A DNA stretch of 64,000 nucleotides from Pseudomonas sp. G.S.17 (GTDB lineage: Bacteria; Pseudomonadota; Gammaproteobacteria; Pseudomonadales; Pseudomonadaceae): assembly GCF_038096165.1 (NCBI RefSeq), contig NZ_CP151076.1:3035501-3099500 (forward strand). The letters run 5' to 3'. A program made the translations under genes and the position numbers. The notes under the pieces were generated by a model that was not told the origin of the DNA, did no database searches, and saw only the letters and a program-made list of their open reading frames with translations. Of this stretch, positions 1 to 11,758 are shown one piece after another (position 1 is the first letter of the stretch; every line of letters starts with the position of its first letter).

Positions 1-14
1 GGAGGACGCACCTG

Positions 15-896
15 ATGTATGCCGTATTGGGAAAGATCGAATTCGAAGTGGCCAGCGGCATCACCGGCATGGAGCAGAGCAGCACTGCCGATTGGGCTGA
101 GCATTCGCTGATCCAGGGCAAGCCGCTCCTGGAGTGGGTCGGCGACGGCCTCGACGAACTTAAATTCAGCATGCAGCTGCATCCATGGCTGGGCGACCCC
201 GAGGCACGCCTGCGCACCCTGCGCGAGGCAAAGAGCAAACACGAGCCGCTGGCGTTTGTCCTGGGCAGTGGGGAATACGTTGGCGCTTTCGTGATTACGG
301 ACATCAGCAACACGCCTCGTCGGACCTCGGCTGACGGTCGGCTTTATTCGTCGAATGTTCAGGTCACTCTGCGCGAATACGCCGGGCCATTCACGCCCAA
401 GGTCGTTAAGGCTGGCCTGATTGATTCGGCGGTGCAGTCCACGGCTGCAGCGAAGATCGCGACCCCAGCATTGATCTCGAAGCTCGCGCCCGTGTTGTCG
501 TCTGCTCAGACAGTGGTTGGTTATGCGCGCCAGGCCGGGACCATGATCCAACAGGCAAAGACCATCTATGACGCGGTCAAGAACTTCAATCCGATGACGC
601 TGCTGACTCAGGCACCGCAACTCGCTGCGCTGACTGAGCGGGCGCTGGGCCCGATCGCTGGCCTGACTGAGGCTGCGAGCTTTATTCATGAGGGGGAGGA
701 CATCGCCCAGCTGGGTCAAAGCCTGTATGGCAGCGTCAGCGGCGCACGCTCTAGCCTGACCCCGCTGGACCTGGGCAATGTGGCCGACAGGTTCGAGACC
801 TCTGGCAACTACATTGCCCAGGCATACGACCGGCTCGACGGGGCTTCAACGCGCCTGACCGGCCTTGCCGCTCAAGTCATCACCAGGAGAGCCTGA
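15..896 (+). CDS. Phage tail protein, P2 gpU-like
   Basis: The 293-residue product begins with a region resembling phage P2 gpU (about residues 1-125), a tail-completion protein of contractile tails. The rest is an Ala-rich helical extension, so the protein is longer than P2 gpU itself. A GGAGG ribosome site at 1-5 supports the ATG at 15. The stop overlaps the next start (TGATG), which implies coupled translation with the X-like gene. The order U-X-D-V-W-J-I downstream supports the assignment. Earlier tail genes such as sheath, tube and tape measure must lie left of the window. A Mu-type DNA circularisation protein is a less likely alternative. Confidence 0.75.
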   Translation: MYAVLGKIEFEVASGITGMEQSSTADWAEHSLIQGKPLLEWVGDGLDELKFSMQLHPWLGDPEARLRTLREAKSKHEPLAFVLGSGEYVGAFVITDISNTPRRTSADGRLYSSNVQVTLREYAGPFTPKVVKAGLIDSAVQSTAAAKIATPALISKLAPVLSSAQTVVGYARQAGTMIQQAKTIYDAVKNFNPMTLLTQAPQLAALTERALGPIAGLTEAASFIHEGEDIAQLGQSLYGSVSGARSSLTPLDLGNVADRFETSGNYIAQAYDRLDGASTRLTGLAAQVITRRA

Positions 897-1102
897 TGTT
901 TCTGACCCATGTCACAACTGAGGGCGAGCGCTGGGATCAGCTGGCCTGGAAGTACTACGGTGACGCACATCGTTACCCGCCGATCGTTGAGGCCAACCCC
1001 CATGTGCCGATCACGGGAGCATTGCCCGCAGGCTTGATCCTGGCTATTCCGATGCTCGATCCCGTTGTATCGAGCGAGGATCTGCCGCCATGGATGCGCT
1101 AG
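896..1102 (+). CDS. Phage tail protein X (LysM-like)
   Basis: This 68-residue protein matches the small gpX tail family, which has a LysM-like fold. It carries the typical pattern of an early W-D-Q-L-A-W-K-Y-Y-G stretch, then a central N-P motif and a short hydrophobic I-L-A-I-P-M segment. It would act in the baseplate region at the tail tip. It overlaps the preceding stop by one base and the following gene by 13 bases, consistent with a tightly packed tail operon. Confidence 0.85.
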   Translation: MFLTHVTTEGERWDQLAWKYYGDAHRYPPIVEANPHVPITGALPAGLILAIPMLDPVVSSEDLPPWMR

Positions 1103-2205
1103 TACCAGGAGAAGTGCCCGAGGCTCGCTTTGTGCTGACCTACCAGCAGCGAAATATCACCCGCGATATCAGTAAAAACCTGACCTCAATCTCTTACTCG
1201 GACTTTTTGACGGGCCAGGCTGACACCTTAGATATCGAGCTGGAGGACGCGGAGGGGAAGTGGCTCGATGCTTGGTATCCGGGGCATGGCGACGCACTGG
1301 CTTTGTCCCTGGGTTGGTCCGGCAAGCCGCTGCGCACGCTGAGCCGCCTGGAGATTGATGAGGTGGACTTCAGTTCTGCCCCGGCTACGGTCGGCATCAG
1401 GGCGATCGCAACAGGCATCAACACGGCGCTGCGCACCACCGAGCACAAGGCATACGAGAGCACCACGCTTGCCGCCGTAGCCCAGGAGGTTGCGAGTCGC
1501 CTGGGGCTGACTCTGGTAGGTAGTATCGAGCCGATCAAGCTGGATCGCCTGACGCAGCAGGAGTCTGATCTGGAGTTCCTGCGCAACCTGGCAGATGAAT
1601 ATGACTACGCCTTTAAAGTGACCGGTTCGCGCCTGGTGTTTCACGCCATCAGCGAGCTGGCCAAGGGCAAGCCGGTCGCTCAGTTGATGCTCAAAGACTT
1701 GAGTAACGTGCGCTTGCGGGACCAGATCAGGACCGTGCCGGAGAAGGTGTCAGTCAAACACAAGGATCCGGCCAAGAAGAAGCTGATCTCCTACGACATT
1801 AAGAACGGTGAGACTGTGGCGGTCCCCAGCAGCAGTAGTGGCGCGACCACCAGTGCTGACACCAAGAAACATCGCAAGCGTTCGGCCTCTGAGGAGGAAT
1901 CCAAGGCCAAGGCCAAGGCCGATCTGGCTAAAGCCAATCGGGAGCGCACGACGGGCAGCTGGTCATTGATGGGTCAGCCCAATCTGGTCAGTGGCAACGT
2001 CGTCACCCTCGTCGCAGCGGGCAAAATGGGCGGCAACTACCTGATCCTGTCCGCGCAGCACCGGATTACCCGTGGTGGTGGCTATACGGTTGAGCTGAGC
2101 CTCTGCCGTGTATCCGCGACCTCGATATCACTGTCATTCGACGCCTCCAAGCCTGATCTGGCGCTTTCGACCTATGGCTTTCAGCAGGATGGTGCCCTTG
2201 CATAA
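1090..2205 (+). CDS. Phage late control / baseplate hub protein D
   Basis: At 371 residues the product has the usual length of the P2 gpD (late control D) family, which corresponds to the gp27-like baseplate hub that receives the spike. The N-terminus (residues about 10-60) has the typical pattern of 'ITRDISKNLTSISYSDF' followed by an acidic 'LDIELED' strand. The middle contains a lysine/serine-rich linker (around residues 230-280), common in this family. It sits directly after gpX and 26 bases before the spike gene, as in P2-like modules. P2 D also has a regulatory interaction with Ogr; nothing here tests that. Confidence 0.85.
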   Translation: MDALVPGEVPEARFVLTYQQRNITRDISKNLTSISYSDFLTGQADTLDIELEDAEGKWLDAWYPGHGDALALSLGWSGKPLRTLSRLEIDEVDFSSAPATVGIRAIATGINTALRTTEHKAYESTTLAAVAQEVASRLGLTLVGSIEPIKLDRLTQQESDLEFLRNLADEYDYAFKVTGSRLVFHAISELAKGKPVAQLMLKDLSNVRLRDQIRTVPEKVSVKHKDPAKKKLISYDIKNGETVAVPSSSSGATTSADTKKHRKRSASEEESKAKAKADLAKANRERTTGSWSLMGQPNLVSGNVVTLVAAGKMGGNYLILSAQHRITRGGGYTVELSLCRVSATSISLSFDASKPDLALSTYGFQQDGALA

Positions 2206-2231
2206 CCTCAAAGCAGCAGGAAGCCTTAGCC

Positions 2232-2783
2232 ATGGGCGTTGAATTGGAATACGGCGAAGTGAGCGCGGTCGATCACCAGGCCTGCAGGATCCGCGTGCGT
2301 CTGGATGACCGGGATGGCGTGGAGAGCTTCTGGCTGCATGTGCCCCAGCGCAACACCCAGGGCACGCAGCGCCGTCCGTTGATGCCCGAGCTGAATGAGC
2401 AGGTGGCGGTGCTGCTCGATGCGGATGGCGTCGGTGGTGTTTGCCTGGGAGGCATCTACTCGACTGCTGAGCCGCCGCCAGTCATCGACGAAGACACGGA
2501 CTATGTGCGGTTCAGCGACGGCACGACCCTGACCTACGACCGTGCTGCGCATGTGATGGCGTTGGATTGCGTCGGTGCCACGACGCTGAAATGCGCCAAG
2601 AACCTGGACATACGGTGCGGTGAGCCCGTGTCGGTCAAGGCCCCATCCGCCACCCTGGATGTTCCTGAGGTGCATCTGAATGGCAACCTCAGGGTGAGCG
2701 GCAATGTGGAGGTCGGCGGTAACGTCAATGCGGGCGGCACCGTGATGGATGGTGGCGGCAACTCGAATCACCATAGTCATTGA
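2232..2783 (+). CDS. Baseplate spike protein, gpV-like
   Basis: The 183-residue product is a P2 gpV-type membrane-piercing spike. It has an N-terminal OB-like region (about residues 1-95) and a C-terminal repetitive beta region with short Asn/Gly/Val repeats (about residues 135-175). It ends in an HHSH sequence. In the family, a terminal H-x-H from three chains binds an iron ion at the needle tip; that role is known for relatives and inferred here. The start ATG at 2232 lies 26 bases after gene D. Confidence 0.85.
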   Translation: MGVELEYGEVSAVDHQACRIRVRLDDRDGVESFWLHVPQRNTQGTQRRPLMPELNEQVAVLLDADGVGGVCLGGIYSTAEPPPVIDEDTDYVRFSDGTTLTYDRAAHVMALDCVGATTLKCAKNLDIRCGEPVSVKAPSATLDVPEVHLNGNLRVSGNVEVGGNVNAGGTVMDGGGNSNHHSH

Positions 2784-2882
2784 GCACCCTATATATAGAA
2801 GGATGTTCGGCTGACCGGCCTGCACGGGAAGCTTTAAACCAGATTAAAAGCTAGCAGGCGCGCACCTCCTCAATATGGGCGC
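2784..2882 (+). other. Intergenic spacer inside tail operon
   Basis: This 99-base gap between the spike and W-like genes is the largest break in the tail block. It contains an AT-rich ATATATAG stretch at its start and no convincing ORF. It could hold an internal promoter, but no clear -35/-10 pair was identified. Confidence 0.3.
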
Positions 2883-3260
2883 ATGACGACGCCTATCTCC
2901 TATACCAGCATCACCGCAGCCCACTGGCAGCCAGCACTTGGCACTGCCGGTGCGGTCGTGGAAGGCCTGCGTGATATTGACCAGGCTATTCGCATCATCC
3001 TCACGACGCCCAAGGGCAGCGACCCACACCGCCCGACCTTTGGCAGTGACATCCACCTCTATATCGACTGGCCTGTTAATCGGGTTGTGCCGCACCTGGT
3101 GCGCGAAGCTGTGGACGCTATACGCCTTTGGGAAACTCGGGTGACAGTGGTGCGGGTCAATCCAGCCATTGAAGCCGCCCAGGTCACCCTGACGGTTGTA
3201 TGGCGGGTCGCAGACGGTGTGCCTCAGTTGACGGAGGTGCCGTATGCGCGAGCTGCCTAA
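2883..3260 (+). CDS. Baseplate assembly protein W (gp25-like)
   Basis: This 125-residue protein fits the GPW/gp25 family of baseplate wedge proteins with lysozyme-like fold. The recognisable core is 'I-R-I-I-L-T-T-P-K-G-S' followed by 'RPTFGSDIHLYIDWPVN', which matches the family's conserved first half. It would form the inner baseplate ring with the J-like protein. The 3' end overlaps gene J by 17 bases. Confidence 0.9.
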   Translation: MTTPISYTSITAAHWQPALGTAGAVVEGLRDIDQAIRIILTTPKGSDPHRPTFGSDIHLYIDWPVNRVVPHLVREAVDAIRLWETRVTVVRVNPAIEAAQVTLTVVWRVADGVPQLTEVPYARAA

Positions 3261-4365
3261 GCCAATATTCGTCACGATCGATCCTGCCGCCACCGAAGCG
3301 GATCTGATTGCGCGCTATGAAGAGAAGTCGGGCAAAACCCTGTATCCGGCGCAGATCGAACGTCTTTTCATCGACCAAATCGCGTACGCCACCACCGGCC
3401 TGCAGATGTCCATTCAGAATGCTGGTGAGCAGCTATTGGTGCGGCACAGCAACGGCCCGATTCTGGATTACCTGGGTGAGCTGGTCGCCACCCCTCGATT
3501 GTTGGCGATAGCGGCACGTTGCACGGTGCGCTTCACCATTGCGCTGCCTGCAACTCAGCCGATCCTGATCCCTGTCGGTACACGAGTGGCCACCCAGGAC
3601 GCCAAGCTGGCATTCGCCACTGATGAAGACGTGCTGATCCCTGCTGGCCAGGCTCAAGTCACCGTCACTGCGACCTGCAGTACGGTCGGCGCAGCTGGTA
3701 ATGGTTGGGCGATCGGGCAGATCAGCGTCATCGCCAATCCACCGTTCGCCGGTCTGCTGGCCACCAACATCACCGTGAGCTATGACGGCGCGGAGGATGA
3801 GGACGACGATCGCTACCGTGAACGCATCATTCTCGCCCCTGAGGCTTACTCCAATGCTGGCAGCCGTGGGGCGTATCGTTATCACGCCATGGCCGTGCAT
3901 CAATCGATCAAAGATGTGGCGGTGCATGGTCCGGCTGAAGGCCAGCAACCCGGCCATGTCGCGCTGTTCCCGCTGACCACCAGCGGATTGCCGACCGCAG
4001 ACCTGCTACAGCGCGTACTGACCTTGGTGAGTGGCGAGAAGGTGCGGCCCCTCTGTGACACCGTGCATGCGCTGCCCCCGGTGCAGGTCGATTACTCGAT
4101 CAGCGCTCGCATCGTCTTCTTCAACAGCGCCGATCGCGTCACCACGATGGCCCGAGTACAAGCTGCTGCCGATGCGTACGCGCTTGAGTTGAGTGTCGGT
4201 TTAGGTGTCGATATCGTCCCTGAGCAGCTGATCGCACGGCTTCAAGTGGCCGGTGTGTATCGGGCCTTTGTCGAGCAGCCAGCGGTTCCGCGTGAATTGC
4301 TGGGCAACGAATGGGCGGTCTGCTCCTCGATCCAGCTGATCGATGCAGGTACGTCCAATGGCTGA
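3244..4365 (+). CDS. Baseplate protein J-like
   Basis: At 373 residues the product is close to the normal length for the Baseplate_J family (P2 gpJ, Mu gp47, T4 gp6-like), which builds the wedge of contractile tails. The central 'GRDEDDDRYRERI'-type region is present here as 'YDGAEDEDDDRYRERI' (about residues 180-195), a strong family hallmark. It is flanked by W upstream and I downstream, both overlapping, so this is one transcription and translation unit. Confidence 0.92.
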   Translation: MRELPKPIFVTIDPAATEADLIARYEEKSGKTLYPAQIERLFIDQIAYATTGLQMSIQNAGEQLLVRHSNGPILDYLGELVATPRLLAIAARCTVRFTIALPATQPILIPVGTRVATQDAKLAFATDEDVLIPAGQAQVTVTATCSTVGAAGNGWAIGQISVIANPPFAGLLATNITVSYDGAEDEDDDRYRERIILAPEAYSNAGSRGAYRYHAMAVHQSIKDVAVHGPAEGQQPGHVALFPLTTSGLPTADLLQRVLTLVSGEKVRPLCDTVHALPPVQVDYSISARIVFFNSADRVTTMARVQAAADAYALELSVGLGVDIVPEQLIARLQVAGVYRAFVEQPAVPRELLGNEWAVCSSIQLIDAGTSNG

Positions 4366-5488
4366 TCAACAGCTGCCTCCGGCGCTGGCCGGTGATGAGC
4401 GCTTCGTCTGGCTGAATGAGCTGCTCAACGAGAACATGCAGCGCCTCGATCTCGACCCGATGCTCGTCTACCTAGTCGACCTGGTGCCGTCTTCGCTGCT
4501 GCCGATCCTTGCCGAACAGTTTTCCATGTTGGAAGAGGCGACTTGGCCGGTGGCAAGATCCGATGATGACCGGCGAGCGCTGATCAAAACCGCGATCATG
4601 CTGCACCGCTACAAGGGCACGCCCTGGGCAGTCAAGCAGGCGCTGGCCACCATCGGTTATCCGGTCCTGGAGCTGATCGAGCAGAAGACTTACCAGGCCG
4701 AATGGATCGCTGCAGGAGGCAAGACCCTCGATGGCACCTGGCTGCTCGATGGCAGCGTCAGCCTCACGCCGCCCGCGACTGGCATCAACGGTCAAGTCAT
4801 GAAGCGCATCGCCATGAGCCACTGGGCTCAGTATGCGATCCGCCTCAACGCCTCGGAAGGCGACTGGTCTCGCGACCAACAGAAACGCATTCGCCAAGTC
4901 GCAGAAGCCTATGCGCCCACTCGCGACGAGCTGGTCGGCATCATCATTGCGCTGCAGGCAAAGTTCGATTCACGAATCACCATCAAGTCGATGGCTGCGC
5001 GCCTGCGCTTGAAGTACTCCAGGTGCCAGCGTTTCCAGCCTGCAGCGCGCCGCACGCTGGATGGCTGCTGGAAACTCAGCGGCGGGTATGCCGACGTGTT
5101 GCTTGACGGTGGCTGGTCTCTTGACGGGCGGCCTCTCAATGGGCGCACACCGACCGGCGCGACCCTGGACAACAGCCACATCACCACTCATCAAAAGATC
5201 ACCCTGCGTGCCGCCATGGCCATGGGTGGCCCGCGCGCTTCTGAACCGGTCCTCTTAGGCGATCGCTTTCTTGCGCTGGATGGCCGCTGGGCTCTGGACA
5301 CCCAAACACTTCAGGGCTGGCCGATGGATGAAGGCCGAAGCCTTGCCGATGCCCAGCTCGACCGCGTTGGCCTGCATCGCCTCGACGGCACCTGGCTGCT
5401 GGGCGGCGAACTGGGCGGACCAAGCATCAGATTCCGCGCCACTTTGCGCGTTAAACACAACGGCATTACGACCCAGGAACCGCTATGA
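4358..5488 (+). CDS. Tail protein I with LDGxW repeat tail
   Basis: The N-terminal half (about residues 1-200) resembles P2 gpI, the baseplate protein that links to the fibres. I chose the ATG at 4358 (M-A-D-Q-Q) over the one at 4343 because an AGGT site precedes it at suitable distance; either is in frame. The C-terminal half carries at least five L-D-G-x-W motifs at about residues 124, 234, 249, 307 and 342, spread through glycine-rich loops. This repeat region may contact the fibre; that is inference. The stop overlaps the next start (ATGA). Confidence 0.82.
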   Translation: MADQQLPPALAGDERFVWLNELLNENMQRLDLDPMLVYLVDLVPSSLLPILAEQFSMLEEATWPVARSDDDRRALIKTAIMLHRYKGTPWAVKQALATIGYPVLELIEQKTYQAEWIAAGGKTLDGTWLLDGSVSLTPPATGINGQVMKRIAMSHWAQYAIRLNASEGDWSRDQQKRIRQVAEAYAPTRDELVGIIIALQAKFDSRITIKSMAARLRLKYSRCQRFQPAARRTLDGCWKLSGGYADVLLDGGWSLDGRPLNGRTPTGATLDNSHITTHQKITLRAAMAMGGPRASEPVLLGDRFLALDGRWALDTQTLQGWPMDEGRSLADAQLDRVGLHRLDGTWLLGGELGGPSIRFRATLRVKHNGITTQEPL

Positions 5489-5850
5489 GCAATCCGACTG
5501 CCACACCCACCACGCTGGCCTATCGGCACCAGGTCGCGGTTAGCGCCGCAACTGGTGCAGCAATTTCCAAAGCCGCCTGGATGGCCTTCGGGTCGGGTAG
5601 CAAGGCGTATTCGCCGGACGAGGACGTGGCCCTCGTGGCTGAGTTCGCCCGCGTTCCAGTGACCAACATCGTGGTAGGCGCTGTGCTGACAGTCAGGGGC
5701 AACATGGGCGGAATCCTGGCTGCAGACAACGTCCTGCGCGAGTTCGGTGTGTTTACCGAGTCGGGCGTGCTGATGGGTCGCCGCGTCGTTAAGCCAAAAG
5801 AGTTCGAGTCCACCAGCGAGATCGAACTCGATCTTGATTTTGAATACTGA
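5485..5850 (+). CDS. Phage tail-collar fibre protein (N-terminal type)
   Basis: This 121-residue protein resembles the N-terminal collar domain that opens many P2/Mu-like tail fibres. Here it is a separate short gene. Typical features are the early 'T-x-A-Y-R-H-Q-V-A-V-S' strand and the end pattern 'E-F-G-V-F-x-E-S-G-V-L'. It probably forms the attachment between baseplate and the large fibre encoded 11 bases downstream. Short overlaps and tight spacing place it in the same operon. Confidence 0.75.
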   Translation: MSNPTATPTTLAYRHQVAVSAATGAAISKAAWMAFGSGSKAYSPDEDVALVAEFARVPVTNIVVGAVLTVRGNMGGILAADNVLREFGVFTESGVLMGRRVVKPKEFESTSEIELDLDFEY

Positions 5851-5861
5851 GGAACACCGTC

Positions 5862-8426
5862 ATGCCGTTGACCCCAAGTCCAAATCCGATTTTCTCCGCC
5901 AGCATGCCGGCGCTGACAACCTCCAGTGTCGCCCACCCGGACACGTGGAATCCGATTCACCAGGCGCTGCTGGACAATGACGCAGCTATTAATAAGGCAG
6001 TTGGCGATAACAAGGCCGCAGCCGATCTGGCCATCGACTCGCTGGATGAGCGCCTTGGCGGCGTTGAGTCGTCGAGCGCTGTTTCAGTTCAAAAGGCCGT
6101 TGATCTTGACTGGCTGTACCGCAACAACGTCGTCCGCTTCGAAATGTTCGTTTCAGGCTACACGCTGATCGATCTGGAGCCGGTCACTGTTATCCAGGGC
6201 GTCAACGGCGATGACTCTATCGATCTGGCGTCCACGTCCCAGCTGCGCCCCGGCGAGTTTTACGTCCTCAGTGATCCGGCTGCGGTCGATGCCAATGGTG
6301 ACCCGGCCCCGGCATCCGCGCTGGTGCAGGTGCAAACCGTACTGTCTGCGGCCCGCATTCGTCTCGCTGCCAACCTGTCACGCGATTGGGGCCCATCGGC
6401 AACCCTGCGCCGCTCCAGTATCAAGGTGCTGGGCGCTTCCCGCGCTGCTGCCATGCCGGGCGACATCTACCTGACGCGCTCGATCAACATCGGCACCGAC
6501 ACCGCTGGTGGCGCGGTCGTGATTCGCCGCTCGCTCAACTCGGGCATGGCCCGTCTGTATTACCGCGACGGCTACCAGCCTACGTGGAAAGAAACCGGCT
6601 GGTCGTTGCGCCGTACCGATGGCGATATCCCGACCGGCTATGCCGACTATGAATACATTCTGCCAATGCGCGGTGATGGCTGGCTGCGACTGGACATCTC
6701 GGGCGAGGCTATGAGCATTGCCCACCTGGTGGCCTTAGGCACGCCAACTGGCCTGGGCGGCTTTATCAACCCGGATCTGCGTCCGGCAACGCCGCTGATC
6801 AGCACGCCTGCCGCCGCTGCAACCGGGGTCATGGAGCGTCCAACGCTGGCCTTGTCGGGCTACAGCTCGCCATCGGGCAACACCCAGGCGGCGGTCCAAT
6901 TCCAGCTGTCCACGACAGCCGCCTTCGTTTCGATCCTGCATGACTCTGGCGTCCTCGGCTCCGGGCTGTCGTATGCATTGCCCGCTGCGGTGCTGGTCGC
7001 TGGAGCGACTTACTACTGGCGTGCCCGCGTCCAGGACGTGGCGGGCTTATGGTCGGATTATTCGGCTGTTTCCAGCTTTGCTACGGCTGCCTCGTTTGTG
7101 TATGTAGCCGCGCCAGGCATCACCGGGCCTGCCGCAAACGCCACGGACGTGCCTGAGCAGCCGACGCTCACCAGTTCAGCCTTTGTCGTGTCGGGCGGCA
7201 CGGATACGCATGCAGCTAGCCAATGGCGGATTCGCGCTGCAGCGGGAACCTACACAGCGCCGGTCTGGGACAGCGGCACCGATGCGGTGAACAAGCTCAC
7301 GGCAGTAGTGCCTGCTGGCAAGTTGCTGCCGGGTCAGTTGAGCTATTACCTGCAGGTGCGCCATCAGGGTACCGCCAAGGGCTGGTCGGAGTGGTCGACC
7401 GAAAGCAAGATCACCACTAAGGCGCAGTTCGCCAACGTGATCGGCATTGCGATGCTCGCCACGGGCGGCGGCGGTGGCACTTGGGCTCGCGTTGATGAAA
7501 ACGGCGCAACCAAGGTGACAGACGCTTCGTTTTTCAGCTCGCACGCCACGTACGGCGCAATCCAGGATCAGGTGGTCGACAGCCAGAACATGGTCAGAAT
7601 CCCGGCCTTCTATGTGAAGCGCGGCACCATCGCCTCGGGCGCAAACGTCGGCAAGAAGGCGGTATGGATTTCCGACCAGCCAGCGACAGGCTTCACCTTG
7701 CACCCGGCATTCAAGAATGCAGGTGCGGATCTCGCGCAGTTCTGGATCGGCAAATACCAAGGCACGACTGACGGGGCGAAGCTGGGCTCCAAGCCGGGCC
7801 TGATGCCGCTGGCCAGTATCGATTTCCCGACCATGCAGGCCCGTGCAGCAGCACGCAACACGGCGGGCGTCAGTGGTTTCGCGCTGTGGTCGATCTACCA
7901 GCTGTCCGCCATTCAGACGCTGGCCATGATCGAAATGGGCGGGTCGGATTCACAAGCGCTGATCGGTCAGGGCAACGTCAGTACCAGCGCCGTGCAGGCG
8001 GTAGACAGTGCCATGGTTGCGCAAGCCACCTGGCGCGGCATCGTCGGGCTGTGGGGCAACGTCTACCAGATGGTTGACGGCCTGCAGACTGATGCGTCGA
8101 GCAGGTTCATGGTCTGGGATCGCAACGGCAACAAGTCGTATCTGACCACCACGCGCACCGCGCCCTCTGGCGGCAGTTACCCGGTGACCATGGCGGAGGA
8201 CGCAGGGGCCAACTACGACCTGCGCGACATCTTTGCGCCCGCAACGGTGGATTCCACGGCCAGCAATGGAACATACGGCGACTACTTCTATGCCAACCCG
8301 AACTGCGTGGCGTTCCACGGTGGCTACTTCGGCAGCGGCTCGACCGCCGGGCTGTTCTATCTGGTCGTCAGCAACGCCTCGTCGAGCGCGAGCACGTACG
8401 TCGGCGGCCGCCTCGCAAAGGTGTAA
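5862..8426 (+). CDS. Tail fibre; DGR target with variable C-type-lectin-like tip
   Basis: This 854-residue protein is the large tail fibre. Residues about 1-300 form the attachment and shaft region. Two fibronectin-like repeats follow (about 308-405 and 412-515), each with a 'Y-Y-W-R-A-R-V'-type or 'W-R-I-R' strand. The C-terminal third (about 525-854) resembles the FGE/C-type-lectin fold used by DGR targets, ending in a G-G-R-L-A motif. The last 103 bases before the terminal K-V are a variable repeat; residues 822, 823, 825, 828, 835, 837, 844 and 846 differ from the template-encoded ones. The protein is therefore the diversified receptor-binding protein. Adhesion to a cell-surface ligand is inferred. 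Confidence 0.88.
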   Translation: MPLTPSPNPIFSASMPALTTSSVAHPDTWNPIHQALLDNDAAINKAVGDNKAAADLAIDSLDERLGGVESSSAVSVQKAVDLDWLYRNNVVRFEMFVSGYTLIDLEPVTVIQGVNGDDSIDLASTSQLRPGEFYVLSDPAAVDANGDPAPASALVQVQTVLSAARIRLAANLSRDWGPSATLRRSSIKVLGASRAAAMPGDIYLTRSINIGTDTAGGAVVIRRSLNSGMARLYYRDGYQPTWKETGWSLRRTDGDIPTGYADYEYILPMRGDGWLRLDISGEAMSIAHLVALGTPTGLGGFINPDLRPATPLISTPAAAATGVMERPTLALSGYSSPSGNTQAAVQFQLSTTAAFVSILHDSGVLGSGLSYALPAAVLVAGATYYWRARVQDVAGLWSDYSAVSSFATAASFVYVAAPGITGPAANATDVPEQPTLTSSAFVVSGGTDTHAASQWRIRAAAGTYTAPVWDSGTDAVNKLTAVVPAGKLLPGQLSYYLQVRHQGTAKGWSEWSTESKITTKAQFANVIGIAMLATGGGGGTWARVDENGATKVTDASFFSSHATYGAIQDQVVDSQNMVRIPAFYVKRGTIASGANVGKKAVWISDQPATGFTLHPAFKNAGADLAQFWIGKYQGTTDGAKLGSKPGLMPLASIDFPTMQARAAARNTAGVSGFALWSIYQLSAIQTLAMIEMGGSDSQALIGQGNVSTSAVQAVDSAMVAQATWRGIVGLWGNVYQMVDGLQTDASSRFMVWDRNGNKSYLTTTRTAPSGGSYPVTMAEDAGANYDLRDIFAPATVDSTASNGTYGDYFYANPNCVAFHGGYFGSGSTAGLFYLVVSNASSSASTYVGGRLAKV
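8317..8419 (+). repeat. DGR variable repeat (VR)
   Basis: This 103-bp segment at the 3' end of the fibre gene aligns without gaps to the template repeat at 9751-9853. Nine positions differ (8325, 8329, 8335, 8344, 8364, 8365, 8371, 8392, 8397), and each corresponds to an adenine in the template. The last 30 bases or so are identical, GC-rich and adenine-poor, matching the initiation-of-mutagenic-homing (IMH) role known from other DGRs. Similarity stops one base after the shared GCAAA. Confidence 0.95.
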
Positions 8427-8454
8427 TGGGTCCTGTGACCTGAGTCATGTCTTT

Positions 8455-8479
8455 GGGCTAGCCCGCCGAGCGGGCGCCC
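8455..8479 (+). other. Hairpin 36 bp downstream of VR
   Basis: A GC-rich stem (GCCCGC/GCGGGC, three-base loop) at 8461-8475 is extended by an outer GGGC/GCCC stem across a two-base bulge. It lies shortly after the end of the fibre gene. Known DGRs carry a hairpin or cruciform downstream of VR that stimulates retrohoming, so this is a candidate. A short TTT follows, so it might also reduce transcription into the downstream genes. Confidence 0.6.
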
Positions 8480-8499
8480 TTTGCTCTTAGGAGAGCGCT

Positions 8500-9069
8500 T
8501 TGAAAATTGAAAATGGAACATTAAGCGTCAACGGCCAAACCATTGCTCTGGCCGATATCAGCGTTGACGGGCTGGTCCGCGTCTGGCTGGTACCGTCCGA
8601 GTACCGAGCGAACGGCCTGTTTGTCGCCGTGATCTTGCCGGGCCAGCCGGACGAAGTCCCGGCCTGCTCATTTGACGCCGCCGAGTATCTGGGCGAGATC
8701 ACATACGAAGCTGCTGCCCCGCACAAGCTGGCCGCCGCCAAGACCGCCAAGCTGGAGCAGATCAACGCAGCGTGCGATCTGGCCTTAGCATCACTGACCA
8801 GCACCTATCCACCCGGTGAATTGCAGAGCTGGCCGCAGCAGGTGCAGGAAGCGGCGGCGTTTCTGCTCGATCCACCAGGCCCCACACTGCTGTTGTCGGC
8901 CATTGCCGAGGTGCGCGGCTTGACGGTCGCGGATCTGGCGGGGCGTGTACAGGCCAAGGCCGAGGGCTACGCCGCCTATTCGGGGGCAATCATCGGCAAG
9001 CGCCAGGCTGCCGAGGATCTCCTCGACAATGCTGAGTCGCTTGAAGAAGTGGCGGCCATTGTATGGTGA
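8500..9069 (+). CDS. Tail fibre assembly chaperone-like protein
   Basis: The start is TTG at 8500, preceded by AGGAG at 8489-8493, which decides the start. The 189-residue product has an N-terminal beta-rich part and a helical C-terminal half with the 'K-L-E-Q-I-N-A-A-C-D' and 'SWPQQVQEAAAFL' segments that are typical of Pseudomonas phage proteins encoded after tail fibres. These are thought to help fold or attach the fibre. Its place between the fibre and the DGR accessory genes fits that role. The stop overlaps the next start. Confidence 0.65.
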   Translation: MKIENGTLSVNGQTIALADISVDGLVRVWLVPSEYRANGLFVAVILPGQPDEVPACSFDAAEYLGEITYEAAAPHKLAAAKTAKLEQINAACDLALASLTSTYPPGELQSWPQQVQEAAAFLLDPPGPTLLLSAIAEVRGLTVADLAGRVQAKAEGYAAYSGAIIGKRQAAEDLLDNAESLEEVAAIVW

Positions 9070-9374
9070 AGCGTATTGCGCTGGGCCTGGTCCTGCTGTT
9101 GCTCTGCGCGTTCGTCACCTTGGTCGCGCTTTGTTGGATGTTCTTTGCTGTGCTCGGTAACAGCACGCGGGCCTGGCGCTTGGCCGTTTCATTTGACCAG
9201 TTGGCCAATACCGCATTTGGCGGCAGCGAAGATGAGACGATCAGCTCTCGCGCAGGCAAGGCTGCTCGACAGGGAAAGCGATGGGGCTGCGTGCTGTGCG
9301 GGCTGCTCAATCGCTTCGAACCCGACCACTGCGAGAAGAATATCGAAGCAGATGAAGGGAAGATGTCAGCGTGA
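9063..9374 (+). CDS. Small phage membrane protein
   Basis: The 103-residue product has one N-terminal hydrophobic segment (about residues 5-30). A cytosolic or periplasmic tail follows, with the pattern D-E-T-I-S-S-R-A-G and a W-G-C-V-L-C-G-L-L motif. Similar small proteins occur near fibre genes of Pseudomonas phages, but I know no established function. A holin role is possible but unsupported, since only one membrane segment is visible. It overlaps both neighbours, so it is co-translated with the chaperone and Avd genes. Confidence 0.55.
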   Translation: MVKRIALGLVLLLLCAFVTLVALCWMFFAVLGNSTRAWRLAVSFDQLANTAFGGSEDETISSRAGKAARQGKRWGCVLCGLLNRFEPDHCEKNIEADEGKMSA

Positions 9375-9727
9375 GTGATGCCCAATTGACCCTGCTGACC
9401 AAGCTTGAAGAGCTGGACGCATACACGCATACCGTATTGCACCAGTTCCCAAAGCTTGAGCGCCACCTGCTTTGCGCCGAGCTAAGGGCTGTAACCAATC
9501 ATTTATTGCGTCTTACGGTGGTGGCTTGGAAGCGCCGCCAGAAGACGGCGGCACTGTTTGATCTAGATGTTGAGATTGAGATATTCCGCCACCTGGTGCG
9601 CAAAGCTCACCGGCTCACCTACATCAACACGCACCGACTGGACGTATGGATGCGTCACGTCAACGAGGTGGGCCGGATTGTTGGTGCGTGGATCAAGCAC
9701 GAAGGATTAGCACCAGTTAAGAAGTAA
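9371..9727 (+). CDS. avd: DGR accessory variability determinant (Avd-like)
   Basis: This 118-residue, almost wholly helical, basic protein has the size and appearance of Avd, the four-helix-bundle partner that binds the DGR reverse transcriptase and template RNA. Regularly spaced hydrophobic residues and clusters such as A-W-K-R-R-Q-K and R-K-A-H-R-L give a positive surface. The start is GTG at 9371, four bases before the end of the preceding gene. It lies 23 bases upstream of the template repeat, the same avd-TR-RT order as in Bordetella phage BPP-1. Similarity to the 23S rRNA intervening-sequence protein family is expected. Confidence 0.88.
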   Translation: MSDAQLTLLTKLEELDAYTHTVLHQFPKLERHLLCAELRAVTNHLLRLTVVAWKRRQKTAALFDLDVEIEIFRHLVRKAHRLTYINTHRLDVWMRHVNEVGRIVGAWIKHEGLAPVKK

Positions 9728-9750
9728 AGAGCATTGGGGGGAGGCTTATT

Positions 9751-9853
9751 ACGGTGGCAACTACGGCAACGGCTCGAACGCCGGGCTGTTCTATCTGAAC
9801 GTCAACAACGCCTCGTCGAGCGCGAACACGAACGTCGGCGGCCGCCTCGCAAA
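9751..9853 (+). repeat. DGR template repeat (TR)
   Basis: This non-coding 103-bp segment is the invariant template. It is rich in AAC triplets in the reading frame that matches VR: eight AAC codons and one TAC codon at the diversifiable positions. By my count it has 24 adenines; nine differ in VR and none of the other 79 bases do. AAC is the usual TR codon because randomising both adenines gives NNC codons, which encode 15 amino acids and no stops. The 119 bases that follow (9854-9972) are the likely spacer part of the DGR RNA needed for priming. Confidence 0.95.
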
Positions 9854-9972
9854 CGATTATCGCCAGAAGGCATCAGGCCCAAGGGCCTGTGTCCAGCGCG
9901 CTTCCTTTGGAGCCCCTCTCCAGACCATGTAGTCAAAGATTTACAGGGCATCGCGGCTACTAGCTTCGGCGA
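9854..9972 (+). ncRNA. Presumed DGR RNA spacer between TR and RT
   Basis: In characterised DGRs the RNA template extends past TR into a structured spacer that primes cDNA synthesis and is bound by RT and Avd. This segment sits in the equivalent place. It contains a self-complementary GGCCCAAGGGCC sequence at about 9887-9898, which could form a hairpin or dimerise. No coding frame here looks real. The role is inferred from position. Confidence 0.5.
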
Positions 9973-11061
9973 ATGTGGCGATGCCCGCCCTCATTTTTCG
10001 CCCTCATATGGGCTAAGGCTTATGTTGTGCCGATCACCACTAATGGCCTCTGGGGCCAGATAATTGATTTTGATAACCTGTACCAAGCCTATCTAGAGGC
10101 GCGTCGTGGCAAGCGGGATCGATCCTCTGTCATGCGCTTTGCCGCCAATGTCGAAGAAAATCTCGTCAACCTGCAGAACCATCTGATCTGGAAAAGCTGG
10201 GCACCCGGCAAGCCTCGCGAATTCGTGGTTAAAGAGCCCAAGCTGCGCCTGATCCAGGCTCCACCGTTTGCCGACCGCGTCATCCATCACGCCCTGGTGC
10301 GAGTGGTCAACCCTCTCTTCGAGCGCAAGTTCATCAGTGACTCCTACGCCTGCCGCGTCGGCATGGGCACCCAGGCGGCTGTGGCACGAGTTCAGCACTT
10401 CATTAGGGTTGCGAAGCGCAACCACGGCGACAGCGCGTATGTACTCAAGGCCGACATCAGTAAATTCTTCGCGAGCATAAGGCATCACGCCTTGCTGCGG
10501 GAAATTGAGCGCACCATCTCCGATAAGAACGTGCTGTGGCTTTGGCGGCAGATCATCAGCGGCTACGGTAATGAGACCGGCATCGGCTTGCCGGTTGGCG
10601 CGCTCACCAGCCAATTAGGAGCCAACATCCTGCTCAGCCGACTGGATCATGCTGCCAAGGATCAGATGGGTATCAAGCACTACGTGCGGTACATGGATGA
10701 CTTCATCGCAGTGCTGCCCAATAAGGAGTGCGCCGCAGCGGCTCTGAGCGAGCTGGCAACGGAAGTGGCGGCGCTCAGCTTGGAGTTGAACCCTAAGACG
10801 GCAATTCATCCTTGGCAGCGCGGCTTGGACTTCTGCGGTTATCGCATATGGCCAACCCACATCTTGCCCCGCAAGCGGAACATCAAGCGGGCGCGGTCAT
10901 CGTTCCGGGCATTGATGGCGAGATATAAGGCAGGGCTGATCAGCCAGCAGCACGTCAGGCAGCGAGTCTGTAGCTTCCTGGCGTACACGAAGCACTGCAA
11001 CGCTAGTCGCACCGTAGAAGGAGTACTTGGTGATTTGAGGTTGGTGAGAGGACGCGGATAA
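9973..11061 (+). CDS. DGR reverse transcriptase
   Basis: The product is a retroelement-type reverse transcriptase of up to 362 residues. Numbered from ATG 9973, the first catalytic aspartate lies in L-K-A-D-I-S-K-F-F (D161). The V-G-A-L-T-S-Q motif (208-214) fits the GxxxSQ signature of DGR RTs, where other RTs usually have QG. The catalytic Y-M-D-D is at 240-243. There is no endonuclease or maturase domain, as expected for a DGR. No strong ribosome site precedes 9973; GTG 10027 is an alternative start. The gene is the last one of the prophage. It would copy the TR RNA with errors at adenines and feed cDNA to the VR in the fibre gene. Confidence 0.93.
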   Translation: MWRCPPSFFALIWAKAYVVPITTNGLWGQIIDFDNLYQAYLEARRGKRDRSSVMRFAANVEENLVNLQNHLIWKSWAPGKPREFVVKEPKLRLIQAPPFADRVIHHALVRVVNPLFERKFISDSYACRVGMGTQAAVARVQHFIRVAKRNHGDSAYVLKADISKFFASIRHHALLREIERTISDKNVLWLWRQIISGYGNETGIGLPVGALTSQLGANILLSRLDHAAKDQMGIKHYVRYMDDFIAVLPNKECAAAALSELATEVAALSLELNPKTAIHPWQRGLDFCGYRIWPTHILPRKRNIKRARSSFRALMARYKAGLISQQHVRQRVCSFLAYTKHCNASRTVEGVLGDLRLVRGRG

Positions 11062-11190
11062 CTCTATAGGCATTTGGTGAATCGGGAGTCACACCTGGCC
11101 ACCGTTTTCGTTATTCTGTTGCAGTGGATGCAACAAATCCAAAAACGATTTATCTCAGCAAAGCCTCTTCATTTTTCGCGCCGCGCATCA
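11062..11190. other. Probable right end of Mu-like prophage
   Basis: Read inward from 11190 on the minus strand, the sequence begins TGATGCGCGGCGCGAAAAAT, close in style to Mu ends (TG..., GCGGCGC, CGAAAAA). Further inside are GATAAATCG (about 11145-11153) and AACGAAAAC (about 11105-11115), which resemble MuA-binding motifs. The host MFS reading frame to the right loses its remaining half exactly here, and its stop codon TGA is the first three bases of the proposed end. The left end lies outside the window. Confidence 0.6.
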
Positions 11191-11742
11191 CCACGCGATC
11201 AATAGCAGGGTCATCCCGGACATCAATCCAAACGCCATTCGCCAGCCCATGAATCCACCCAGCCAGGTACCCAAAGGCACCCCCAGCGACAATGCGATGG
11301 GCGTTCCCACCATCGCTACCGCGAGCGCGCGGCCCTGTAATTGGGGCACAACCATGCGTCGCGCATAACCTGCAATCAGGCTCCAGGCCAGACCCGCGGA
11401 AACGCCGGCGAAGAACCTCGCGATCAAGGTCAGCCAGTAGTTGGAGGACAGCGCAGTGACAGAATTGAAAATCAAAAACCCGACAATCGTAAGCAGCAAG
11501 ACTGTTCTGCGGCCCCAGCTCTGCGTGGCGATGGTCAGCGGAATTGCTGCCAGCAGCGACCCGAGTGCGTAAACAGTCACCATCTGCCCTGCAAACGATG
11601 CCGAGACCTCCAGCCCGCTGCCGATCTCGGGCAGTAATCCCGCAGGTAACGTCTCGGTCACGATGCATATGAACCCCGTCATCGCCAGTGCCAGTAATGC
11701 CCCAAGCGGGAGTCTTTCGGAATGTCTCTCATCGTTAGTCAT
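11188..11742 (-). pseudogene. MFS transporter, truncated by prophage end
   Basis: The 184-residue remnant (from ATG 11742) covers about the first six membrane segments of a DHA1-type drug efflux transporter. It includes the R-F-x-A-G-V-S-A-G-L-A and G-x-P-x-G motifs. A complete member is about 390-400 residues. The frame ends in I-A-W and then TGA, which belongs to the presumed phage end. The missing C-terminal half should sit on the far side of the prophage. It is divergent from a TetR regulator that probably controlled it. Confidence 0.82.
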
Positions 11743-11758
11743 GCATCCACCCACTAAT

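Follow-up and report, generated by a model that had tools for sequence, protein, structure and literature searches.

The diversity-generating retroelement (DGR) of Bordetella phage BPP-1 (mtd-avd-TR-brt) is arranged in the order target gene, bbp7 (Avd), template repeat (TR) and gene for the reverse transcriptase (RT). Its target has a C-type lectin (CLec) fold, and a hairpin follows the variable repeat (VR) in which the target is rewritten. According to the relevant sections of PMC12875486, the BPP-1 template is rich in AAC and change is directed to adenines. The hairpin passages of PMC3240598 describe, for phage DGRs including BPP-1, a GC-rich stem of 7-10 bp with a four-nucleotide GRNA loop, 4-34 bp past the VR, and section 10 of the same paper reports that altering the size or sequence of the BPP-1 loop brings homing near background. 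DGRs in transposable phages are already known, and hankyphage, Mushu and BalMu-1 are such carriers. In the passages concerned, activity of the hankyphage DGR on a tail-fibre gene was observed in overnight cultures (PMC12135933), and Faecalibacterium phage Mushu is a transposable phage with a DGR target (PMC11792537). Here I describe a DGR in a 64,000-nucleotide stretch of the Pseudomonas sp. G.S.17 genome (contig NZ_CP151076.1; the whole stretch is called the window below), where it occupies the right-hand end of a Mu-type prophage of 38.5 kb. As a DGR it is of a usual kind and has good support; the new part is a hairpin loop class that is matched to the RT clade.

An initial annotation made from the letters of the window had claimed that all DGR parts are present, and the repeats, Avd, RT and hairpin could each be located (Table 1). 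It was confirmed that the cassette is a complete DGR, with target gene, Avd, TR and RT all intact. It shares with BPP-1 the gene order, the adenine-directed change, the AAC-rich template, a CLec-type target and a hairpin past the VR. It differs in that the RT is 37.8% identical to that of BPP-1 over 78% of the query, in that two extra genes lie between the target and Avd, and in the hairpin, which in BPP-1 has an 8-bp stem and a GAAA loop 4 nt past the VR and here a CRA triloop on a bulged stem whose inner part starts 41 nt past it. The template, the target with its nine adenine-only substitutions, Avd and the RT were seen directly. If the nine differences could fall anywhere among 103 bases, 24 of which are A, the chance that all hit A is about 5e-7. 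As the initial annotation had read them, the variable codons of the template are eight AAC and one TAC; the differences hit seven of the eight AAC codons and the TAC codon, leaving the AAC at 8373 unaltered. Past the repeat end, the VR runs into GGTGTAATG and the TR into CGATTATCG. As a whole, the locus is very probably a phage DGR that rewrites the end of its own predicted fibre gene, with the CRA hairpin as the target signal. An error-prone RT with Avd would copy the invariant template RNA into DNA, misreading adenines. The mutated copy would overwrite the end of the predicted tail-fibre gene, and the fibre tips of progeny phages would be altered as a result. To locate the target, the machinery would use the 3′ end of the VR, identical to that of the TR, and the hairpin behind the VR.

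Table 1. Coordinates of the DGR, its carrier and the records used for comparison (window positions unless a contig or kb is given)
Feature	Position	Strand	Remarks
Window	G000:C1:3035501-3099500		6.27-Mb genome, two contigs
Transposable prophage, right part	1..11190	+	whole element G000:C1:3008155-3046690, 38.5 kb
DGR target gene, predicted tail fibre, 854 aa	5862..8426	+	phrog_5302 tail protein, PF25788
Variable repeat (VR)	8317..8419	+	9/9 differences vs TR at template A
VR 3′ end identical to TR, place of the initiation of mutagenic homing (IMH) site	8398..8419	+	IMH label by position, after BPP-1
Predicted target hairpin, CRA triloop class	8455..8479	+	GGGC-(TA bulge)-GCCCGC-[CGA]-GCGGGC-GCCC
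189-aa protein between fibre and Avd	8500..9069	+	phrog_2618 (function unknown)
103-aa protein between fibre and Avd	9063..9374	+	phrog_34710 (function unknown)
Avd accessory protein	9371..9727	+	PF22296 1.7e-23; NF033474 2.1e-26, above cut-off; phrog_3206
Template repeat (TR)	9751..9853	+	103-nt direct repeat of VR
Conserved predicted RNA structure, TR 3′ end and start of TR-RT spacer	9840..9990	+	
DGR reverse transcriptase, 344 aa	10027..11061	+	phrog_1423 1.2e-123, RVT_1
6-bp target duplication CCACGC, right copy	11191..11196		left copy G000:C1:3008149-3008154
Two-DGR records (other genomes)	cassette A ~5.1-7.35 kb; cassette B 7.35-9.0 kb		L015 ~0.4 kb lower

The identity of the RT and its VGALTSQ and YMDD motifs, as first annotated, stood up, and only its start had to be moved. 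It is most likely the GTG at 10027 rather than the ATG at 9973, because the stretch before the GTG has insertions and deletions between relatives and because other clades have an ATG at the aligned place. Among solved structures the RT matched 8ub7, which I take to be the BPP-1 RT, at 3.4e-48, and the second-best match was 3.3e-21. A check named with the initial annotation was the placement of the RT: in a tree of 21 rows it groups with DGR RTs at a support of 99/99, the tree holding 18 DGR-labelled RTs (this RT, BPP-1 and BalMu-1 included) and a small outgroup of three distant RTs, with labels that I assigned from weak similarity only. The record of Bacillus phage BalMu-1, presumably Mu-like, holds a SUMF1-family protein, Avd and an RT 41.5% identical to that of the window. 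The nearest RT (98%) is in Pseudomonas antarctica DSM 15318T, whose locus is 93.5% identical in DNA over 9.2 kb including the whole cassette, with a different VR and a TR differing at 2/103 positions. Among 398 genomes of the same genus, the RT was found at an E value of 1e-60 or better in two, its own genome counted. Four more RT matches in the genome (30-31% identity; G000:C1:113920, 1030184, 1988560 and 5150863) sit in open frames of 467-469 aa and are possibly group II intron proteins. The protein annotated as Avd-like proved to match Avd families, although its sequence match to the solved Bbp7 is weak (0.041).

For the C-terminal fibre region, Pfam gave no family of the C-type-lectin or formylglycine-generating enzyme (FGE) type, and the best stretch of an immunoglobulin-like domain match lies at residues 334-409. 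Therefore, a structure model of the 300 C-terminal residues was made from an alignment with 44 relatives (mean predicted local distance difference test score, pLDDT, 91.9). Its best Foldseek match is 5vf4, the Thermus DGR variable protein TaqVP (9.4e-15), followed by the FGE-like PvdO (7.9e-5), while Mtd (1.4e-3) and TvpA (1.7e-3) are weaker. Thus, the VR sits at the 3′ end of a target modelled with a CLec fold. For a DGR target one would expect a tip domain of just this fold, its surface open to change, and the fibre tip would presumably bind a receptor.

The hairpin that had been annotated downstream of the VR was found there. It has a 6-bp inner stem (10 bp with the TA bulge) and a CGA loop, and its inner stem starts 41 nt past the VR; in stem, loop and distance it departs from the consensus of Guo 2011 for target hairpins of BPP-1-type phages. 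The loop is a CRA triloop (CGA or CAA), unlike the published GRNA tetraloop. In the open-library searches and the hairpin passages covered, no description of CRA loops was found, and an earlier description may exist. A three-base loop of the sequence GRA, not CRA, is given in the passage of PMC4372165 on the nanoarchaeal DUSEL4 DGRs, which differ also in being archaeal and in having the hairpin within the target gene. A scan was performed in which the loop sequence was free and the loop length could vary between 3 and 7; 24 of 131 sources that had no TR/VR pair passing a 60%-A filter were left out and L062 was added. In the resulting 108 loci, duplicates included, the scan gave 36 CRA, 32 GRNA and 20 other hairpins and none in 20 loci, and on BPP-1 it recovered the known GAAA hairpin. 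CRA or GRNA hairpins appeared after the TR in 0/107 loci, at six other offsets in 2/642, and in 0.26% of shuffles. Among the 22 distinct CRA hairpins many different stem sequences occur, with 131 of 132 inner pairs kept. Both sides have changed in five of the six stem pairs, and three measures lie above all 500 shuffles, while 34/500 shuffles reach the number of changed pairs and 12/500 the pair types; this count is only descriptive, because its rows were picked as CRA hairpins. The other offsets and the shuffles are the real control for the CRA and GRNA hairpins, not the stem count.

Does the loop class follow the RT? Two RT trees were built without a chosen outgroup. In the first, L010 and L014-L016 seemed to have reverted from CRA to GRNA; this reading was rejected, as each of these loci has two RTs and the hairpin that had been scored was that of the other cassette. 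In the corrected tree of 95 rows, each hairpin was assigned to its own RT, BPP-1 was added and L053 was left out for its long branch. The 34 CRA rows and the 32 GRNA rows, BPP-1 among the latter, are split by a single change. All 34 rows of the CRA clade are CRA, two of them classed by eye, and no row of the other classes or without a hairpin falls among them. Among the relatives compared, the CRA loop was thus found only with one RT branch. On a basal RT branch, L099 has a CGAG loop, perhaps an intermediate between the loop classes. This match between loop class and RT clade leads me to infer co-evolution of the loop with RT/Avd, or with a host factor on which these rely, and to propose that a DGR is helped by its loop in finding its own target.

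Five records (L010, L014, L015, L016 and L077) have two Avd-TR-RT cassettes in tandem, one per loop class. The RT of cassette A is about 42% identical to the window RT, and its VR (VR_A) lies next door with a GRNA hairpin in 5/5 records, those of L010 and L077 read by eye and the former with a mismatch. The RT of cassette B is 68-70% identical to the window RT. No VR for cassette B was found within its 12-17-kb locus, and its template TR_B looked like an orphan when read from its own locus; this reading was dropped when remote partners turned up. VR_B lies 56 kb off in L010 and 62 kb off in L077, inverted in both, and on other contigs in L014-L016, and its hairpin is CRA in 5/5. In L014-L016 the remote VR_B is inside a homologue of the window fibre (51-52% over the C-terminal part), with no RT match in the stretch taken. 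The differences between TR_B and VR_B fall on A in 10/14 cases in L016, 13/16 in L014, 15/19 in L015 and 15/19 in L010. DGRs acting in trans are already known from a passage of PMC10907252, and a large survey states that remote targets are invisible to its approach (PMC8144416, in the part concerned). As a separate observation, L084 has a second RT match (78% identical, residues 60-344 only) beside a DGR of the other type, possibly a decayed second cassette.

The initial annotation had also proposed looking for VR variants over an invariant TR in related genomes, and such variants were found. Seventeen loci were compared with the window; 15 hold both repeats, and once the duplicates L059, L066 and L140 were dropped, 12 remained. 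Together with the window these make 13 rows, in which 128 of the 131 differences from TR to VR are at A, which is replaced by T in 57, G in 47 and C in 24 cases. L058 and L060-L065 share one identical TR and have seven different VRs. The VRs of L062 and L065 differ at 11 sites (10 at A) with 0/400 differences in the upstream bases, and those of L061 and L063 at 13 sites (all at A) with 2/400; other pairs among the seven also differ upstream of the VR. L140 (same-genus genome G126) and L007 (Pseudomonas sp. UMAB-08) have the same TR, VR and hairpin. As identical TRs go with differing VRs, the family has been active recently. The first A of AAC codons changes mostly to T (37/60) and the second mostly to G (25/53), and of the 114 AAC codons across the family rows 30 read Tyr, 25 are unchanged Asn, 23 read Ser and 3 Asp. 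These outcomes resemble those measured for the BPP-1 RT, which converts AAC mostly to Tyr, Ser and Asp (PMC12875486, section 7), except that Asp is rare here. The estimate of about 10^10 fibre tips (15^8 x 4) given in the initial annotation is right as arithmetic (1.0e10) and only nominal as a repertoire, because the TAT codon at 8358 also varies in relatives and because the BPP-1 RT, in the data given in PMC12875486, brings only 8 of 14 amino acids to at least 1% from AAC.

Beyond what had been annotated, the two genes between fibre and Avd, the prophage setting and a second copy in the genome were observed. The element has a TGT left end and the motif CTGAGATAAATC near both ends. Its genes include a transposase and a DNA transposition protein (phrog_310 and phrog_296), terminases, portal and head proteins, and a tail sheath and tape measure of a contractile tail. 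No near DNA match to window positions 1-11190 was found in 50,697 phage records. A second prophage of the same kind lies at G000:C1:5632546-5671595 with its own 6-bp duplication. The left 12 kb of the two are 83-98% identical per 1-kb bin, some stretches being unaligned, while a base-by-base comparison of the right 26,251 bp shows two differences, and TR and VR are identical. From the separate duplications and the differing left parts, the two insertions were separate, and the late modules derive from a shared source of very recent date. The near-identical 26-kb late module beside differing early regions makes recombination or gene conversion between phages likely. A search of the genome with the TR gave four strong matches, two TRs and two VRs; the rest were short with E values of 0.046 or worse, and no further VR turned up. 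With the same module and the same VR, the RT of either prophage could in principle serve both fibres. As read by eye, a frame resembling a major facilitator superfamily (MFS) transporter (11188-11754, minus strand) stops at the prophage junction; the insertion seems to be inside this MFS-like host gene, and the second prophage seems to be inside an EAL-domain-like gene.

Several points weigh against the view that the DGR rewrites its fibre with the CRA hairpin as its signal. By the automatic scan, neither CRA nor GRNA is present in 40/108 loci. The stem count is partly built in, its 22 rows having been chosen as paired CRA hairpins. The branch that splits CRA from GRNA has 96% bootstrap support and only 63% in the Shimodaira-Hasegawa-like approximate likelihood ratio test (SH-aLRT). 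L079 and L089 were classed as CRA by eye and L010, L030, L077 and L113 as GRNA, where the scan had settled on an overlapping register or run into a mismatch, the GRNA stem of L010 being the mismatched one. In L077, only 9 of 20 TR_B/VR_B differences are at A, and in the family 3/131 are elsewhere. The loop class could be inherited with the locus without being recognised. Both copies in the genome carry an identical VR, which gives no direct sign of activity in the strain.

One alternative is that the hairpin terminates transcription or was inherited as a bystander, without being a target signal, and that the loop classes merely track descent. The hairpin does have a gene on either side, loop class and RT are passed on jointly, and a T run follows the stem in 9/27 distinct GRNA loci. 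However, four T within 12 nt past the stem occur in only 1/27 distinct CRA loci, the hairpin stays in 34/34 rows of the CRA clade while its stem sequence varies, and the VR_B hairpins are still CRA at 56-62 kb from their own RT or on another contig. In BPP-1, both the size and the sequence of the loop are critical (PMC3240598, section 10). The terminator reading is thus disfavoured, and I regard the whole alternative as rather unlikely. A second possibility is that the DGR is real but a silent relic in this strain, its VR written before the prophages settled and its machinery now dead. The VR is indeed identical in both prophages despite their differences elsewhere, which means that it has not been rewritten since the copies parted. 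Yet RT and Avd are intact. The ratio of nonsynonymous to synonymous substitution (dN/dS) is 0.04-0.11 for the RT and 0.04-0.07 for avd, each in the six of seven pairs that gave a value (the seventh was saturated), with no stops, so that both genes are under strong purifying selection in the family; the 189-aa protein gave 0.06-0.34, also in 6/7 pairs. The two differences in the shared 26 kb suggest that little time has elapsed, and lysogens may rewrite rarely. The copies give no rate of rewriting, because there may have been later gene conversion between them. A dead relic is therefore quite improbable in my view. Traces of retrohoming are seen in the relatives only, and rewriting in the present strain is what I infer. 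That TR and VR are an ordinary duplication with drift, beside an RT of another retroelement, is next to inconceivable: nothing was found in its favour, and it is contradicted by the A-only differences, the adjoining Avd, the placement of the RT and, in the family, the A-specific VR variation and the near-identical pairs.

A further element of the cassette lies around the 3′ end of the TR. The stretch is highly conserved across 22 sequences, the window included, and its predicted fold has six helices, with 97.1% of cells paired and both sides changed in 14 of 38 pairs. None of 500 shuffles, which keep the relatedness among the sequences, was as high on any of five measures, and sliding the partners by 1-3 columns reduces pairing to 38-47%; the same alignment had served for predicting the structure. 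In this alignment, L069, L082 and L083 of a first version were left out, L083 because the stretch taken was too long, and L060 was added. By analogy with BPP-1, the fold may be read as the RNA part that the RT/Avd complex uses. An Rfam scan of the window at gathering thresholds gave 0 matches.

If the DGR uses the CRA hairpin as its target signal, what may the two loop classes mean? The loop of the BPP-1 hairpin is known to matter for target recognition. Tentatively, and with somewhat less than even confidence, the classes could serve as address labels: one clade of DGRs in proteobacterial phages, to which the present DGR belongs, would have switched from GRNA to CRA together with its RT, which would keep two DGRs in one genome orthogonal. 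A CRA-class RT would then reach a fibre gene tens of kb away, while its GRNA-class neighbour would write the adjacent one. The two prophages in one chromosome are a natural control for the rarity of VR rewriting in a lysogen. Nature offers both loop classes, divided along the RT tree, and some records combine one DGR of either class, so that recognition can be compared directly through cognate and non-cognate pairs. If the loops are indeed labels, several DGRs could work side by side without cross-talk, which would also bear on tools for diversification in vivo.

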